A DNA stretch of 64,000 bases, taken from assembly GCA_014894395.1 (NCBI GenBank), contig JADBLO010000059.1, positions 1 to 64,000 of the forward strand, given 5' to 3'. Positions 26,283 to 35,078 of the stretch are shown here, piece by piece. The DNA is from Thermoplasmata archaeon (GTDB lineage Archaea > Thermoplasmatota > E2 > DHVEG-1). Numbering within the stretch: the first letter of the stretch is position 1; every line of letters begins with the position of its first letter. Made by a program: the position numbers and the translations under genes. Below the pieces are notes generated by a model. That model searched no databases, was not told the DNA's origin, and saw nothing but the letters and a program-made list of their open reading frames with translations.

Positions 26283-26594
26283 ATGATACCTCTCGAAAAA
26301 ATCAAAGCAGCAGAAGCTGAGGCAAAACAAGCAATCCGCGAAGCAGATATCAAAGCAAAAAAAATAATAGATGCTGCAGAAAAGAATGTAGAAAAAGAAA
26401 AACATAGGATTATTGAATTTGCCCTGAAAAAAAATCAAAAAATGCAAGAAGATGCAGAAGCAGAAGCAAAAAAAGAGACGGTAATTATTCAGGAAAAAAG
26501 TAAAGATGAACAGGACGCGATTAAGAACAATGCAATAAAAAACATGGAAAAAGCAATTTCCTTGATTATTACTAAGATTACAAAGGAGGAATAA
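26283..26594 (+). CDS. ahaH: A-type ATP synthase subunit H (peripheral stalk)
   Basis: This 103-residue, almost entirely helical protein is full of Ala, Glu and Lys heptads (EAEAKQAIREADIKAKKIIDAA), the coiled coil that pairs with subunit E in the peripheral stalk. The ORF track starts eight codons earlier at a GTG. The ATG used here begins MIPLEKIKAAE, like family members, and lies at the right distance from the TATA box for a leaderless start. It is first of a ten-gene operon in the aha order H-I-K-E-C-F-A-B-D-G. Confidence 0.85.
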   Translation: MIPLEKIKAAEAEAKQAIREADIKAKKIIDAAEKNVEKEKHRIIEFALKKNQKMQEDAEAEAKKETVIIQEKSKDEQDAIKNNAIKNMEKAISLIITKITKEE

Positions 26595-26597
26595 CAA

Positions 26598-28619
26598 ATT
26601 CTTTTTCCATCCCTGATGAGTAAAGTAACAGTAACAGTGCATCAAGACTATATAGAAGAGATTATAACGACTCTTTATGAAACAGGGATGGTTGAGATTA
26701 TCGACATCGTAAATGATGCCCAGTCTTTTAACGATGAATCAACAGATAGAGAGCTTCTAGGTCAAGGGTTTGATACCTCCTTTGAGTTGAGATTAACACG
26801 TATTATTGATATTTTAATGAAAAGCAATAAACCACTTAAAGGCATTCGAGAACTGCTGCATCCGCAGCTGCCAGAGGTTACAGCGGTAAAAAAATGTTCG
26901 TTGAAAGAACTTTATTCTTCTTGTGATCACCTTTTTCAAGAAATTGAACCGAATATTCTTACTTGTGAAAAACAACTCAATTTCCTAGAAGAACGAAAGG
27001 TGATCCTCCTACAACAACAAGAACAGCTTGCCTATTTTAAAAATATGAAGTTTACTCTCTCAGATATAAACGATTCATCGTCGGTTCTTGTGAGAGTTGG
27101 AAAAACCACTGATCTTGCATCATTGGAAAAAGACCTAGAAAAAACGGAATTAATACTGTTTCAATCAGAATCGTATACTATCGGGAAAAAAAAGGAATGG
27201 GCGATCCTTCTTGTTGCTCATCGTTCTGAACAAGAACATGTAGAAAAAATTAGTCGAGACTTCCTGACATTATTTTCTCTTCCTCTGACTGACGAATCAC
27301 CACGACAAGCGATACAGACACTAACAGATACTCTTAAACAACTAGATGAGGAAAAACATCAGATTCTTTCTCAACTACGTTCATTAGTAGAAAAACACCT
27401 TCAGATGCTCCTTGTTCTACGAGAGCAACTCCAGCTTGAACATGTGCGTACAGAAGTATGTAAAAATTTTGGAAAAACACAGTTTACCTATCAAATTCAA
27501 GGTTGGGTTTTAGAAAAAAATGCAAATAAATTAACTACTATACTTTCCGAAACATCAAACGATCATGTCTATTGTAGTTTTGAGACACCTTCACCAAACC
27601 CTGATCACCCCCCTACCTACATAGAGACGCCTCGCTGGGGATCACTCTTTAAAACATTTGTTGATCTTTTTTCTACTCCAAAGTATAATGAGTTAAATCC
27701 AACAATATTCATTGGGATTTTCTTTATTTTATTTTTTAGTATTATGCTTGGAGATGCAGGATATGGTTTGGTTATTCTCCTGCTTTCAGTATTTGGATAT
27801 GTAAAATTTAGGAAATTTAGTCCGACTATCCGAGACTGGTCGTTTCTTGGTATCTTCCTTGGTGTTTCAACTATTATAGCGGGTTTACTCATGAATAGTT
27901 TTTTCGGAGATTTTATTCCACGATTCATTTATCAAAATCCGGAGCGGCCATTATATAGTATGACGATTCTGGGCATCCATTTTCCAATAGATGCACTGGG
28001 TGATCCTCTGACGGTTCTTACTATAGCATTATGTTGCGGTTTGATCCATCTCAACATTGGAATTTTTTTAGGTTTAATTCAATCGTTAAAACAACATGAT
28101 TATAAAACCTTTATCACCCAGCGGTTCTGTTGGATTCCGCTTCAGATTGGTGGAGGTATTTTAATAGGAGATATGATCCTTGATTGGCAGACACCCACGT
28201 TGTTATTTTATCTTGGAGGAGCCTTCACGCTAATAGGAATTATTTTATTGTTTATATCTTCGGGTCCTGTAGGTTTTTTTGGAATCACCGGATTTGTTGG
28301 TGATTGGCTTTCTTACGCCCGTCTTCTTGCTTTAGGACTTGCAACATCAGGAATGGCTCTGGCATTCAATGTGGTAGGAGATATTCTCTCGGGAATGATT
28401 CCCGTTATTGGTATAGTTATTCTTCCAATTTTTCTCGTTATTGCTCACACAGCGAATTTAGCAATTCAATCGTTAGGTGCGGGGGTTCATTCTTTACGAT
28501 TGCAATATGTTGAATTTTTTAATCGGTTTTATGAAGGCGGTGGTAGAGAATTTGCACCGTTTCATGTAAGAAGAACATATACAAAAATTGAAGATATAAA
28601 AACTGGAGATAAAATATGA
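26598..28619 (+). CDS. ahaI: A-type ATP synthase subunit I (a), probable AUU start
   Basis: This subunit forms the stator half-channel for ions. The N-terminal 330 residues are cytoplasmic and helical. The C-terminal half has about eight membrane helices, including DWLSYARLLALGLATSGMALAFN, which holds the essential Arg. The ORF track starts at ATG 26616, but a strong AAAGGAGGA ends 26 bases before that codon. Reading from ATT at 26598, eight bases after GGAGG, gives (M)LFPSLMSKVTVTV. This restores the family N-terminal pattern M-[LF]-x-P-x-x-M-S-K-V. An AUU start is therefore likely. The gene overlaps the K gene by four bases. Confidence 0.9.
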   Translation: MLFPSLMSKVTVTVHQDYIEEIITTLYETGMVEIIDIVNDAQSFNDESTDRELLGQGFDTSFELRLTRIIDILMKSNKPLKGIRELLHPQLPEVTAVKKCSLKELYSSCDHLFQEIEPNILTCEKQLNFLEERKVILLQQQEQLAYFKNMKFTLSDINDSSSVLVRVGKTTDLASLEKDLEKTELILFQSESYTIGKKKEWAILLVAHRSEQEHVEKISRDFLTLFSLPLTDESPRQAIQTLTDTLKQLDEEKHQILSQLRSLVEKHLQMLLVLREQLQLEHVRTEVCKNFGKTQFTYQIQGWVLEKNANKLTTILSETSNDHVYCSFETPSPNPDHPPTYIETPRWGSLFKTFVDLFSTPKYNELNPTIFIGIFFILFFSIMLGDAGYGLVILLLSVFGYVKFRKFSPTIRDWSFLGIFLGVSTIIAGLLMNSFFGDFIPRFIYQNPERPLYSMTILGIHFPIDALGDPLTVLTIALCCGLIHLNIGIFLGLIQSLKQHDYKTFITQRFCWIPLQIGGGILIGDMILDWQTPTLLFYLGGAFTLIGIILLFISSGPVGFFGITGFVGDWLSYARLLALGLATSGMALAFNVVGDILSGMIPVIGIVILPIFLVIAHTANLAIQSLGAGVHSLRLQYVEFFNRFYEGGGREFAPFHVRRTYTKIEDIKTGDKI

Positions 28620-29197
28620 GAAAAAAGCAAATGGTAATAGGAATTTTAATGCTAATGACACTCCTGCTTGTATCAGCAGGTATTGCGAGTGCTCAGGAAG
28701 AAACTCCTGTCTCTCAAGCAGATCAGAACAAAATATTGTTAATATTGGGGTGTGCATTTGCGATAAGTATCGCAGGGATCTCTGCTGCTATCGGACTTAC
28801 ACTGGCTGGATCTGCAGCAGTAGCTGTTACCGCTGAAAAACCTGATCTTTTCGGGAAATGTCTTGTTCTCTCGGTATTACCGATGACACAGGCAGTATAT
28901 GGCTTGCTTACCGCTATCCTGTTGATGTTAGGGGCAGGTCTCTTGGGAGGAAGTGCAAGAGCTGATATGGCTAATCCTGTTATTGGAACCGCGTCTATTT
29001 TGATTGGTCTTATTGTGGGATTAACCGGTGTTTCTGCTATAAACCAAGGAATGGTCGCCTCTGCTTCCATTAGTGCTGTGGGGAGAAACCCTGATGTCGC
29101 AGCACGTGGCATCATTTTCACTGTTCAGACAGAAACCATCGCTATCTTTGGGCTATTAGCTGGTATTTTGTTAATGACGGGGCTTGGATTACTCTAA
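28616..29197 (+). CDS. ahaK: A-type ATP synthase subunit K (proteolipid, two-hairpin form)
   Basis: The rotor-ring subunit has 193 residues, with a cleavable-looking leader (about 1-26, ending IASAQE) followed by four membrane helices in two hairpins. Hairpin 1 has VLPMTQAVYGLL with no carboxylate. Hairpin 2 has QTETIAIFGLL with the ion-binding Glu. One carboxylate per four helices is the V-type-like arrangement. The set L-x-x-T-Q in helix 2, INQG in helix 3 and E-T in helix 4 parallels the Na+ site of Enterococcus hirae NtpK (recalled), so Na+ coupling is suggested. The start overlaps the I gene. Confidence 0.93.
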   Translation: MRKKQMVIGILMLMTLLLVSAGIASAQEETPVSQADQNKILLILGCAFAISIAGISAAIGLTLAGSAAVAVTAEKPDLFGKCLVLSVLPMTQAVYGLLTAILLMLGAGLLGGSARADMANPVIGTASILIGLIVGLTGVSAINQGMVASASISAVGRNPDVAARGIIFTVQTETIAIFGLLAGILLMTGLGLL

Positions 29198-29224
29198 GGC
29201 GATTGATACTCTAGGAAGAAAACC

Positions 29225-29785
29225 ATGTCTGCAGAAAAGATAATTACTCGCATACACGACGATTCAGAAAAACAAATACGTCAGATTATTAAAAAAGCGG
29301 AGAACAACGCTGAAGAGTTAATTCAAACTGCAAAAAAAGAGGCACAACAAGAAGCAGAACGCATATTTGCTATGGGTGAGACACAAAGTGAAAACATTAA
29401 AAAGATACACATTTCGAAGGCCCATCAAGAGGCAAGACGAGAGGTAAGCAATGTAAAAGAACACATAATCGATGAGTGTTTTACCCAAGCATTCCAACGT
29501 TTATCAGAGATTCCAGATGATCATTATAAAGATATTATCACTCAACTCATAAACGAAGGAAAAAAGAAACTTGGAGATTCATGCGTAGCAATCATATCAG
29601 GAGAACGTGACAGAGAAATAGCAAAAATGGAAAAGGTTCCAGTAAAGGGAATCATCGCTGCATCTGGTGGGGTTATCTTGCAATCAGAAGATGGAAAAAT
29701 CGCTATTGATAATACCTTTGAGGGAATACTCAAACGTAAAAGAAATACAATCCGCATTGAGGTAGGACAATTATTGTTCTCATAG
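29225..29785 (+). CDS. ahaE: A-type ATP synthase subunit E
   Basis: Subunit E is the second peripheral-stalk component. Residues 1-100 form a charged coiled coil (IIKKAENNAEELIQTAKKEAQQEAERIF). The C-terminal globular part includes the typical GGVILQSEDGKIAIDNTFEGILKRKR, which binds the catalytic head. The length of 186 residues is normal. It follows subunit K by 27 bases, with AGGAAG shortly before the ATG, and precedes subunit C. Confidence 0.94.
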   Translation: MSAEKIITRIHDDSEKQIRQIIKKAENNAEELIQTAKKEAQQEAERIFAMGETQSENIKKIHISKAHQEARREVSNVKEHIIDECFTQAFQRLSEIPDDHYKDIITQLINEGKKKLGDSCVAIISGERDREIAKMEKVPVKGIIAASGGVILQSEDGKIAIDNTFEGILKRKRNTIRIEVGQLLFS

Positions 29786-29795
29786 GAGGAGGACT

Positions 29796-30920
29796 ATGCT
29801 AGAAGGGATACTAGAGCCATCATCTCCTCTGTTCTGGGGGCTTATCATTGCTCTTATCTCGTTTGTTATTGTTATTATTTCAAGGCCTTTGGCAACCTAT
29901 ATTAAATTTGTTTATCCAAATGCAAAATTTGAGGCAATCGGTAACCCATTCATCCATGAAAAAGAGCTCCTTCGTCTGATCGAGAGCAAGGATCTCACCT
30001 CTTTTAAAGATATATTAAACATATTAAAAGACTATCAGGTTGAAGGAGACGATGTTGTATCTCTACAGCGATCTTTAGATAAAGGACTTATCAAAACCGT
30101 TGAAATGATGGAAAACGATAGCTCAAAGGCATTACACCAGTTTTACACTGTGTACTACGAAAAACGCGATCTAGTTCTTATTAAAGAGTCCCTGAAAAGC
30201 ATTCTTAGTGGTACAACAAAAGACACAACATTAGCAGATAATGCGTATCTGCCACAAACCAAAGAATTGTTAAATAAATTACATGAGGCGACAAAAGAAA
30301 CCCTTGCTCCAATCTTATCTGCGTATGGATATACTGACACACTTATTCAGTTGTTGATAACAGAACCACCCGATTTTTTTAAGATAGACTTCACATTAGA
30401 TCAACATATCCTTAACAAATTCAAAGAAGTAAAAGTACCCTATAAATGTGAAAGAGCAAAGAAAAATTACTGTCAACGATTGTTAGATATTATGAACATC
30501 AAATATCTGCTTCGGGCAAAGCATATTGGGTATGATATTGATATGTGTAAAACAATGTTCCTGGGAGAGGGAACGGAGCTTGCTTTATGGAGATTTAAAC
30601 AGATGGCTGAAGCAGAAGATATCGTAAACGCGATTGCTGCACTTGAAGGAGCATCTTACTTTTCTGCATTAGATGAGAAAAAAGAAACATACATTAAAGA
30701 AGGATCTGTTCAGATATTTGAAAATACGCTTGACCGGTTGTTTCTCAAACATATAAAGGATATTTCTCTGCAGGATTATTCAACACTCGGTCCGACACTT
30801 CGATTCCTTGTGTCTAAAGAATATGAAATTCAGAATTTAAAAGTCATTGTAAAGGGATTAGATGAGCATGTGTCCACTGATGCCATAAATCGGTTTATTG
30901 TCACGGAGGCAATGACGTGA
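29796..30920 (+). CDS. ahaC: A-type ATP synthase subunit C (rotor-stalk adaptor, V-ATPase d homologue)
   Basis: Subunit C links the central stalk to the K ring. The protein is 374 residues, somewhat longer than many archaeal C subunits because of an N-terminal hydrophobic segment (FWGLIIALISFVIVIISRPLATYI). The conserved middle includes NIKYLLRAKHIGYDI, typical of V-ATPase d/A-ATPase C (usually NLKxLLRAKxxG). A strong AGGAGGA precedes the ATG. The end overlaps subunit F by four bases. The N-terminal membrane-like helix also occurs in some methanogen AhaC proteins. Confidence 0.92.
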   Translation: MLEGILEPSSPLFWGLIIALISFVIVIISRPLATYIKFVYPNAKFEAIGNPFIHEKELLRLIESKDLTSFKDILNILKDYQVEGDDVVSLQRSLDKGLIKTVEMMENDSSKALHQFYTVYYEKRDLVLIKESLKSILSGTTKDTTLADNAYLPQTKELLNKLHEATKETLAPILSAYGYTDTLIQLLITEPPDFFKIDFTLDQHILNKFKEVKVPYKCERAKKNYCQRLLDIMNIKYLLRAKHIGYDIDMCKTMFLGEGTELALWRFKQMAEAEDIVNAIAALEGASYFSALDEKKETYIKEGSVQIFENTLDRLFLKHIKDISLQDYSTLGPTLRFLVSKEYEIQNLKVIVKGLDEHVSTDAINRFIVTEAMT

Positions 30921-31237
30921 AAATCGCGGTGATAAGCGACAAGGACACGGCAGTAGGATTTCGACTTGCCGGCATACACCATGTACTTATCCCAACAGGG
31001 CAACCGTTTCCTGTCTTCCAGGATCTTATAGGTCATAAAGATATCGGGATTGTTTTTATCACAGAACCTATAGCGAATCAGATGGGAAAGCCGTTGAAAG
31101 AATATAGACTCAAAAACGATCTCCCACTCATTGTGGAAATCCCTGATAAAAAAGGACATTCAAAAGAGCAGGTCGATTTTATCTCTCATCTTATAAAACG
31201 AGCAGTTGGAGTTGATATCGAGAAAAAAGAAAAATAA
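30917..31237 (+). CDS. ahaF: A-type ATP synthase subunit F
   Basis: This small central-stalk subunit of 106 residues has the Rossmann-like start MKIAVISDKDTAVGFRLAGI and the stretch DIGIVFITEPIANQM typical of AtpF/V-ATPase F. It starts with GTG overlapping the C-subunit stop (GTGA), so translation is coupled. It is followed 15 bases later by the catalytic A subunit. Confidence 0.95.
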   Translation: MKIAVISDKDTAVGFRLAGIHHVLIPTGQPFPVFQDLIGHKDIGIVFITEPIANQMGKPLKEYRLKNDLPLIVEIPDKKGHSKEQVDFISHLIKRAVGVDIEKKEK

Positions 31238-31252
31238 AATGGAGGAACATAT

Positions 31253-33028
31253 ATGGCTCAAATTATTGGAAAAATCATACGGATCTCAGGACCAGTTATT
31301 GAAGCAGATAATATGCGCGGCGCAAAAATGAATGATGTGGTCCATGTTGGCAAAGAACGTCTTATCGGTGAAATTATTCGTTTAAACCAAGATGTTGCTA
31401 CAATGCAGGTATATGAGGATACAACGGGGTTAAAACCAGGAGAAATCGTTGAGTCAACCCAAGAGCCGTTATCAGTTGAACTTGGCCCCGGTCTAATAAC
31501 AAGCATTTATGATGGTATTCAACGACCGCTTCCCGCCATCCGAGAACATACCGGAGCATTTATCGCTCGTGGTGTCCAAGCATTTTCTCTTGATCGAAAG
31601 AAAAAATGGCTGTTCACTCCCGAGGCGCAGAAAGGAGATGCCGTCGTTGGAGGTGATGTTATTGGAGAAGTACCTGAAACCTCGCATATTCAACATAAGA
31701 TTATGGTTCCTCCATTACTTACCGGGATTATTGCATCTATTGCTTCGGAAGGCAAATATACAATTGAAGAAGAGATTGCTACCATTACAACTAACAATGG
31801 TCCTGTAAAAATAACGATGATGCAACGATGGCCGGTACGTAAAGCACGGCCGTTTATTGAGAAATATGATCCCACCGTGCCCTTGATTACTGGTCAGCGT
31901 ATCATCGATACGTTCTTCCCCATAGCGAAAGGAGGTACTGCAGCAATTCCTGGTGGTTTTGGAACAGGTAAAACCGTGATGCTTCATCAATTAGCAAAAT
32001 GGAGTGATGCTAAAATTGTTGTGTATGTAGGATGTGGTGAACGGGGCAATGAAATGACTGATGTCCTCAGAGAGTTTCCTATGTTGGAGGACCCAAGAAC
32101 TGGTGAGCCTCTTATTAACCGAACCGTCCTTATTGCGAATACCTCTAATATGCCTGTTGCTGCTCGTGATGCAAGCGTTTACACAGGGATAACTATCGCA
32201 GAGTATTATCGAGATATGGGCTACGATGTTGCGTTAATGGCCGACAGCACATCTCGATGGGCTGAGGCAATGAGAGAAATCTCGGGGAGGCTCGAAGAAA
32301 TGCCTGGAGAAGAAGGATATCCAGCGTATTTAGCATCGCGTCTCGCAGAATTTTATGAACGGGCAGGACGGGTGAAACTTCTTGGGTCGAAACATCGTGA
32401 AGGTTCAGTGTCCGTCATGGGTGCAGTATCACCCCCTGGTGGTGATTTCTCTGAACCGGTTGCTCAGAATACCCTTCGCATCGTGAAAGTCTTCTGGGCT
32501 CTTGATGCCGACCTTGCAGATAAACGACATTTCCCCTCAATTAATTGGCTAAAATCCTATTCATTGTACCTTGAGGAGGTAGGAAAATGGTGGGAACAAC
32601 AAGTTGGAAAAGATTGGCTTAACCTTATTAATCGGGCGATGGCCCTTCTTCAGAAAGAATCTGAGCTTCAAGAAATTGTGAAACTCGTTGGACCAGATGC
32701 TTTACCGCCACGAGAACGTGTTCTTTTAGAAAGCGCAAGAATGATCCGAGAACATTATCTCCAACAGAGTGCTTTCCATGAAGTTGACACGTATTGTCCT
32801 GGGAAAAAACAGTATGAAATGCTTCGACTTATGTTAAAGTTTTCAGAAAAAATTCTTGAAGCTGCAGAGAAACATGCTCATATTGACAAAATCCTTGCTC
32901 TTCCATCTCGAGAGGTTCTTGCGCGAATGGGTAAGATGGCGAACGATGAATTTGAGCAACGATTTCATCAGATTGAGGACGATTTAGAAAAAGAATTAGA
33001 TGCGCTGATAAAGGAGAAAATCGCATGA
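31253..33028 (+). CDS. ahaA: A-type ATP synthase catalytic subunit A
   Basis: Subunit A hydrolyses or makes ATP in the head. The P-loop is [14 protein letters not shown] (about residues 232-245). The A-type insertion domain is at about 115-190. The catalytic region is [20 protein letters not shown], and the [19 protein letters not shown] stretch is invariant. The length of 591 residues is typical, with no intein, although A subunits are a common intein site in archaea. GGAGG precedes the ATG, and the gene overlaps subunit B by four bases. Confidence 0.97.
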
Positions 33029-34425
33029 AGAACACCGACATTGAATATACCACAGTAACTGAGATAGCAGGCCCATTAATGGTTGTTGAAAGTATCACTG
33101 ATGTTGCGTACAATGAAATTGTAAAGATTCGAACTTCGTCTGGTGAGGAACGTACTGGTCAAGTAATTGAAGTGTTTGAAAACAAGGCTATCGTTCAAGT
33201 CTTTGAAGGAACTCGAGGGCTGGATACGAAACATACCTCTGCACGTTTCATCGGGGAGACCATGAAACTTGGTGTATCAAAAGAGATCATTGGTCGTGTC
33301 TTTGATGGGATGGGAAACCCCTTGGATCATATACCATCTATTATTTCTGAAGATCGTCGGGACATCAACGGCAAACCAATAAACCCGTACGCACGAGAGT
33401 ATCCCCAAGAGTTTATTCAGACTGGCATCTCTACCATCGATGGACTAAATACTCTTGTTCGTGGCCAGAAACTTCCGATTTTTTCAGGTTCAGGTTTGCC
33501 TCATAACGAGCTTGCTGCTCAGATAGCACGACAAGCGAAAGTTCGTGGGAACGAAGAAAAATTCGCTGTTGTCTTTTGTGCTATGGGGATTACTGCAGAG
33601 GAAGCAAACCTGTTCATTAAGGATTTTGAGAACACAGGATCACTTGAAAGAACCGTGATGTTTTTGAACCTTGCTGATGACCCAACCGTTGAACGGATTA
33701 TTCTTCCACGTATGGCCCTCACCTGCGCTGAGTACCTGGCCTTTGATCTTGATATGCACGTGTTAGTTATTCTTACAGATATGACCAACTATGCTGAAGC
33801 ACTGCGAGAAATTGCTGCCGCGCGGGAAGAAGTTCCTGGACGACGTGGATATCCGGGGTACATGTATACGGATCTCTCGATGATTTATGAGCGAGCAGGG
33901 AGAATTCAGCAGAAAAAAGGATCCATTACTCAAATTCCAATGTTGACTATGCCTGATGATGATATCACTCATCCTATCCCCGATCTCACGGGGTATATCA
34001 CCGAGGGTCAAATCGTATTAGACCGAGGGTTGCATAAGAAAAATATCTACCCACCCATCGCTGTCCTTCCTTGTCTTTCCCGGTTAATGGATCGAGGGAT
34101 TGGAAAAGATCGAACACGAGAAGACCATGCGGATGTGGCAAACCAGTTGTACGCTGCGTATGCAGAAGGACGAGATCTGCGAGATTTAGTTGCTATAGTA
34201 GGTGAAGATGCTCTCTCTGAACGAGATCAGCAATTCCTTAAATTTGCTGATCAATTTGAACAGCGGTTTGTTGCCCAAAGTTCCCATGAAAACCGAAGTA
34301 TTGAGCAAACACTCTCCATTGCTTGGGAGTTACTCTCCGCACTACCTGATTCTGAACTGAAAAAAATCGATGAAAAGTACATTAAAAAATATCATCTGAA
34401 AATAAAAGAGAAAAAGACGATATGA
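33025..34425 (+). CDS. ahaB: A-type ATP synthase regulatory subunit B
   Basis: The non-catalytic partner of A has 466 residues. The degenerate nucleotide region [19 protein letters not shown] replaces a P-loop, as expected. [18 protein letters not shown] and [29 protein letters not shown] are diagnostic of V/A-type B subunits. The start ATG overlaps the A-subunit stop and the end overlaps subunit D, showing strong translational coupling through the A-B-D block. Confidence 0.97.
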
Positions 34426-35078
34426 CCGAGCAAATCCTCGAGGATGTCAACCCGACACGCATGGATCTTTTAGAAACAAGAAAGAAACTTGCGTTAGCGA
34501 GAAAAGGTTATACCTTACTTGAAGAAAAACGAGACACCCTTGTAGAAAAACTCTTTGGAGTTATTACAAAACGTAGCACACTGAAACAAACAATCGATAC
34601 AGGTTTTCACGATGCTTTTTTCTCTTTGCTTCAAGCACAAATGCTTCTTGGCGAACAGCAGGTGAACGATGCCTCTCAGTTAACGCCGCCGGCTGGGGAA
34701 ATCGATTTAGAACCCCATAACATCATGGGGGTAAAGATTCCTAAGCTGAATAAACAGCACCTGCAACATCCAACTAAACCGCGCTACAGTTTTTTAGAAA
34801 CCTGTGCCTCCCTTGATGATGCCTATAAAAGATTCAATGACCTGCTAATTCAGATGGTTGAACTAGCTGAACTTGAAGGCATTATCAAATCCTTATCTGT
34901 TGAAATAGAGAAAACAAAAAGACGGGTTAACGTCCTTGAACATACCTTGATTCCACGGCTCCTTGCAACGATAAAGTATATTGAGATGCAGCTTGAAGAA
35001 AGAGAACGAGAGGATTTCTTCCGTAGGAAACGAATTAAAGCACTTTTAGAAGCAAAGAAGAGCAAATATGTCCATTGA
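34422..35078 (+). CDS. ahaD: A-type ATP synthase subunit D (central stalk)
   Basis: The central rotor shaft is a long antiparallel coiled coil. The N-terminal motif [29 protein letters not shown] and the C-terminal [40 protein letters not shown] are standard. The length is 218 residues. It overlaps subunit B at its start and the small membrane protein at its end. Confidence 0.96.

Follow-up and report, generated by a model that had tools for sequence, protein, structure and literature searches.

The Start of Subunit I in the Window

At which codon does translation of subunit I of an archaeal A-type ATPase begin, when neither ATG, GTG nor TTG stands where its Shine-Dalgarno (SD) sequence would place the start? 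The question is raised by a contig of a Thermoplasmata archaeon (JADBLO010000059.1), of which positions 1 to 64,000 were analysed, the whole stretch of 64,000 nucleotides being called the window here. Between the stop of the preceding atpH-like gene and position 26616 the window holds no in-frame ATG, GTG or TTG. The atpH stop, TAA (26592-26594), is followed by CAA (26595-26597), by ATT and then by CTT TTT CCA TCC CTG up to the first ATG (table 1; junction letters ACAAAGGAGGAATAACAAATTCTTTTTCCATCCCTGATGAGT), and translation across the junction reads Q-I-L-F-P-S-L-M-S-K-V-T-V. The SD lies within the final codons of atpH (K E E stop), and its duplex with AUCACCUCCU is worth -10.0 kcal/mol. Functional SD-to-start spacing in the genomes studied is about 5-11 nt, a range that includes the 8 nt to ATT and is far exceeded by the 26 nt to ATG; thus, a near-cognate codon occupies the working distance and no canonical start is found there. 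Both distances, like the coordinates, had been given correctly in the first-pass annotation, which took the in-frame ATT as the start codon of subunit I. The identity of the gene is well supported: its product matches PF01496 (V_ATPase_I, E=1.5e-33, 116.2 bits against a curated cut-off of 30.7), has 8wci chain P as its closest solved relative (E=2.3e-50), and is encoded among ATPase genes in the order H-I-K-E-C-F-A-B-D. The atpH-like ORF is without a Pfam match and was identified from position, length and an arrangement conserved across the family.

Table 1. Features of the atpH-atpI Junction and the ATPase Operon in the Window
Feature	Position	Strand	Remarks
atpH-like gene (A-type ATPase H subunit)	26283..26594	+	ATG start; TAA stop 3 nt before ATT
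Shine-Dalgarno AAAGGAGGA	26582..26590	+	Core GGAGG at 26585-26589; 8 nt before ATT
AUU start codon, subunit I gene	26598..26600	+	Family conservation, SD spacing, blind ortholog test
LFPSL codons, translated N-terminus ahead of first ATG	26601..26615	+	Coding signature, 31 species
First in-frame ATG, internal Met (residue 7)	26616..26618	+	26 nt past the end of AAAGGAGGA
atpI/ahaI, A-type ATPase subunit I, 673 aa from AUU	26598..28619	+	PF01496, structural match
Remaining operon: K, E, C, F, A, B, D	28616..35078	+	Starts all ATG or GTG in the window
Note.—The final base of AAAGGAGGA is the reference point for SD distances.

Conservation of the Start Codon

We compared this junction across the family of the window genome in Candidatus Thermoplasmatota, whose members include SG8-52-3, SM1-50, and M9B1D, described as Marine Benthic Group D (MBG-D) or Thermoprofundales (PMC6461988). 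The family forms a single clade (support 100/100), and the start region of atpI is readable in 31 of its species; nearly all genomes compared are metagenome assemblies. The homologous start codon is ATA in 19 of the 31 and ATT in the other 12, while ATG, GTG, TTG, and ATC occur in none, so that a near-cognate codon is conserved to the exclusion of canonical ones in every species. An assembly error at the start codon was ruled out, the same state being found in 31 separate genomes. Elsewhere in the order and class, families mostly have ATG at the homologous codon, have it a codon earlier (f2), or use TTG (f5, f7). The alignment of the junction, together with the SD spacing, therefore bears out the ATT start suggested for the window and extends it: the non-canonical start is family-wide, ATA is more frequent than ATT, and G and C are avoided at the third base.

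Outside the family, one further genome (G042, family f4; L124 / G042:C30) begins atpI with ATA behind GGAGGG, an SD of -11.4 kcal/mol. Given its distance from the family in the tree, this may be an independent switch, and so a second origin of ATA. Within the family, seven genomes (G002, G005-G008, G010, G025; L114-L120) carry a divergent subunit I of about 27% identity with an ATG start (e.g. MFKPQEM), which suggests that the ATPase was replaced among some members of the window's own genus as well as in two further genera.

The pattern of change at the start codon is itself informative. Along the family tree the third base changed about 8-9 times from A to T or back, and G or C never arose. 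The same genomes show 11 A/G third-base changes at Lys codon 9 of atpI, and ATC turns up in every one of the gene's 16 conserved Ile columns, in 1 to 9 species each, with 4-14 changes. The probability of finding no ATC at the start is about 0.001 with the species taken as independent, a value that their relatedness makes optimistic. Judged from these comparisons, selection against AUG at the atpI start codon would be the natural reading.

Is the segment between ATT and the first ATG in fact protein? Among the 31 species, codon positions 1-2 of Phe and Pro and position 2 of Leu are invariant, while third-base variation is seen in Leu, Phe, and Pro, amounting to about 9, 3, and 6 changes respectively; the Leu codons include CTT, TTA, CTA, CTC, and TTG. 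Change in Leu-Phe-Pro is thus almost only silent, which argues that the segment is translated. A lack of conservation of LFPSL in relatives had been named beforehand as an observation that would count against the ATT start; we find instead that I-L-F-P is kept in nearly all 31 species, mostly through synonymous change, and that almost every outgroup has ATG at the start codon or beside it. Translation from ATG 26616, with an incidental reading of LFPSL upstream, is accordingly very improbable. That ATG is invariant in the family (Met in 31/31), and it is the one that annotation tools would pick; yet it lies too far from the SD, the equivalent Met is internal in most relatives that start with ATG, and these have their ATG at the upstream place. 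Still more improbable is a fusion of H and I in which the upstream residues would arise by read-through of the atpH stop. In 23 of 30 family genomes the stop shares the reading frame of subunit I, as such a fusion would need, but in the other seven (L010, L015, L021, L024, L033, L039, L112; gaps of 2, 4, and 5 nt) it is out of frame with ATA/ATT and the SD kept, so that the segment is not a read-through product, unless frameshifting is added.

Strength of the Initiation Signals

Every one of the 30 family junctions for which upstream sequence exists has its SD 7-11 nt from ATA/ATT, the distance also used by genes with ATG. It is a strong SD: the median energy is -9.5 kcal/mol ahead of ATA/ATT (n=31, including G042) against -5.75 ahead of ATG (n=26), although the associated significance (Mann-Whitney p=1.3e-7) overstates the independent evidence, since the contrast is largely one evolutionary event. 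Nor is this strength unique to atpI, given that the operon genes A, B, and F of the family have equally strong SDs, yet start with ATG. No signal of unusual mRNA structure was found at the atpI start, and the two CAU-anticodon tRNAs of G009, a genome assembled as a single contig, show nothing odd that would indicate an altered initiator.

Elsewhere in the family operons, ATG is the start codon almost throughout for H, K, E, F, A, B, and D. Subunit C is different, with TTG in 19 of 25 genomes, GTG in 2, and ATG in 4, the window included. In two f2 loci (L076 9116, L083 2652) subunit C has CTG behind GGAGG where an ortholog has ATG, making these possible CTG starts. A blind test, in which the codon aligned with an ortholog's SD-supported ATG was flagged whenever the family gene lacked a canonical start, was run over 377 family ORFs (73 from the window's own genome, 212 from family loci, 92 from G009); nearly all flags fell on atpI, the remainder being alignment slips or single unclear cases.

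The Weak Start as a Proposed Fixed Limiter

Why would a family retain such a start in a core enzyme? We favour a model, with a probability of roughly 0.6, in which the weak start of atpI acts as a fixed translational limiter, while the strong SD and coupling to atpH would together yield a limited, H-linked supply of subunit I. The initiator Met-tRNA, with its normal CAU anticodon, would read AUU or AUA through a mismatch at the third position, and subunit I would thus still begin with Met. The weak codon would lower initiation, and the archaeal factor aIF1 would be expected to proofread it; this factor makes initiation complexes less stable when the codon is not AUG (PMC6237735), and its gene was found in 38 of the 40 genomes searched. 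The strong SD, along with ribosomes arriving from the atpH stop, would then restore enough initiation. In Haloferax, very short intergenic gaps permit termination-reinitiation, which a gap of about 20 nt abolishes (PMC10666635), and the H-I gap measures 2-5 nt in all 30 family genomes. On balance, subunit I, a large membrane protein present once per complex, would be limited and made largely in step with atpH. Because the non-AUG start is kept in all 31 readable species, the weak codon probably helps to set the amount of subunit I.

Several observations temper this model. The strong SD may compensate for the weak codon, and could do so fully, leaving no net limitation. The SD contrast is mainly one event, with G042 as sole candidate for a second origin, and the seven genomes with a divergent, ATG-started subunit I indicate that family ribosomes need no AUH codon for that function. 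The first-pass annotation had gone further, proposing that AUU could set the one-per-complex level of subunit I. This stoichiometric reading is only partly supported: the single-copy subunits I and C both have weak starts, but F and D, also single-copy, use ATG.

Conserved near-cognate starts are already known from bacteria. In Escherichia coli, the AUU start of pcnB, encoding poly(A) polymerase I, keeps its level low (Binns and Masters 2002, cited in PMC9764084). The role proposed for atpI resembles this fixed, limiting type by analogy, including the AUU codon, yet pcnB is bacterial, has a poor ribosome-binding site where atpI has a strong SD, and belongs to no operon for a multi-subunit enzyme. 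The near-cognate start of infC, encoding IF3, is likewise a conserved Ile-type codon, ATT in E. coli and ATC in Streptomyces (PMC5472188). In Streptomyces sigR, GTC (32 of 34) or GTT (2) follows a conserved AGGAGGTG (PMC5472188), so that, as in atpI, a near-cognate codon is kept across species with a variable third base and a strongly conserved SD.

These last two systems invite a regulatory explanation, namely that initiation at AUA/AUU responds to aIF1/aIF1A activity or to growth state, much as IF3 acts on infC and sigR. The sigR-like pattern, with a varying third base and both the near-cognate codon and the strong SD retained, speaks for it, and we regard it as the most credible competitor, though an unlikely one. 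This ATPase has no link to translation factors, and aIF1 itself has an ordinary ATG start in G009, which leaves no infC-like loop on a fidelity factor; an autoregulated factor of the infC type was rejected as a description of this locus on the same grounds, the product being subunit I. As for sigR, it encodes a bacterial stress sigma factor, is repressed by IF3 and is known from one genus, while the atpI start spans a whole archaeal family. Less likely again is that the start carries no meaning, ATG being dispensable in a lineage of relaxed habit with strong SDs, where drift would keep a non-AUG codon. Such a habit would agree with the excess of near-cognates behind orphan SDs in G009, Pfam-identified enzymes included (see below). 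Drift, however, would often yield ATG or ATC, and neither occurs in 31 species, even though A/G third-base changes are frequent nearby and each conserved Ile column has ATC; besides, systematic non-AUG starts in the blind set are essentially those of atpI, and a restrictive genome-wide pattern gives no family excess. The fixed limiter thus remains our preferred explanation.

Near-Cognate Starts beyond atpI

In G009, near-cognate codons stand behind SDs that lack a canonical start in 45 of 141 cases, against 17 expected (p=8e-10), and, over 0.5 Mb of sequence from the genome that holds the window, in 17 of 57, against 7.3 expected (p=5e-4). No such excess was seen in class outgroups, E. coli, or a Lactobacillus plasmid, all small samples, and the strict pattern GGAGGTG-5nt-ATH-AAR shows no genome-wide family excess over the reversed control, with tiny counts. 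Among the G009 cases are conserved enzymes identified by Pfam, in which ATT, ATA, CTG or ACG comes after a strong SD and the next canonical codon is 17-94 codons further in: SIR2 (L235:6687-7421), AhpC/TSA (L236:12333-12812), PTPS (L201:15731-16168), ketopantoate reductase (L235:1562-2506), dihydroorotate dehydrogenase (CTG; L184:5958-6863), and Cdc6 (ACG; L166:12878-14131). For dihydroorotate dehydrogenase and MTHFR, the GTG of an ortholog aligns with the near-cognate codon of G009. The tRNA-Ile2 agmatidine synthetase TiaS also has an N-terminus without a canonical start, both in the window's own genome (contig 10, L258:12376-13743) and in G009 (674704-676068), the next canonical start lying 20 and 218 codons in, respectively. 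It may begin with ATC/ATT, preceded by a GGTGA/GGGAG motif and standing before the conserved Trp, or with a GTG displaced by one base from the reading frame, forward in one genome and backward in the other. We entertain, as a tentative and rather doubtful proposal, that MBG-D may tolerate near-cognates broadly (AUU, AUA, AUC, CUG, and ACG behind strong SDs, in perhaps 1-2% of genes of some species), with the AUA/AUU of atpI fixed across the family by selection against AUG and AUC.

Implications

The aha/atp operon of the window family agrees with those of other A-type ATPases in gene order (H I K E C F A B D) and gene families; outgroups start subunit I mostly with ATG, or a neighbouring ATG, and in a few cases TTG, whereas this family uses AUU or AUA. 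The start codons named in a 2020 archaeal review are limited to AUG, GUG, and UUG, and no archaeal AUU or AUA start was found in the literature searched, whose coverage was incomplete; the archaeal instance thus appears to be new. Annotation pipelines restricted to ATG, GTG, and TTG would truncate subunit I. If our reading holds, atpI would apparently provide the first conserved start other than AUG, GUG or UUG in archaea, and a case in which selection throughout a family keeps the start codon of a core energy enzyme weak, and it would offer a natural system in which to approach both the handling of near-cognate codons by the archaeal ribosome and aIF1 and the stoichiometry of the ATP synthase.
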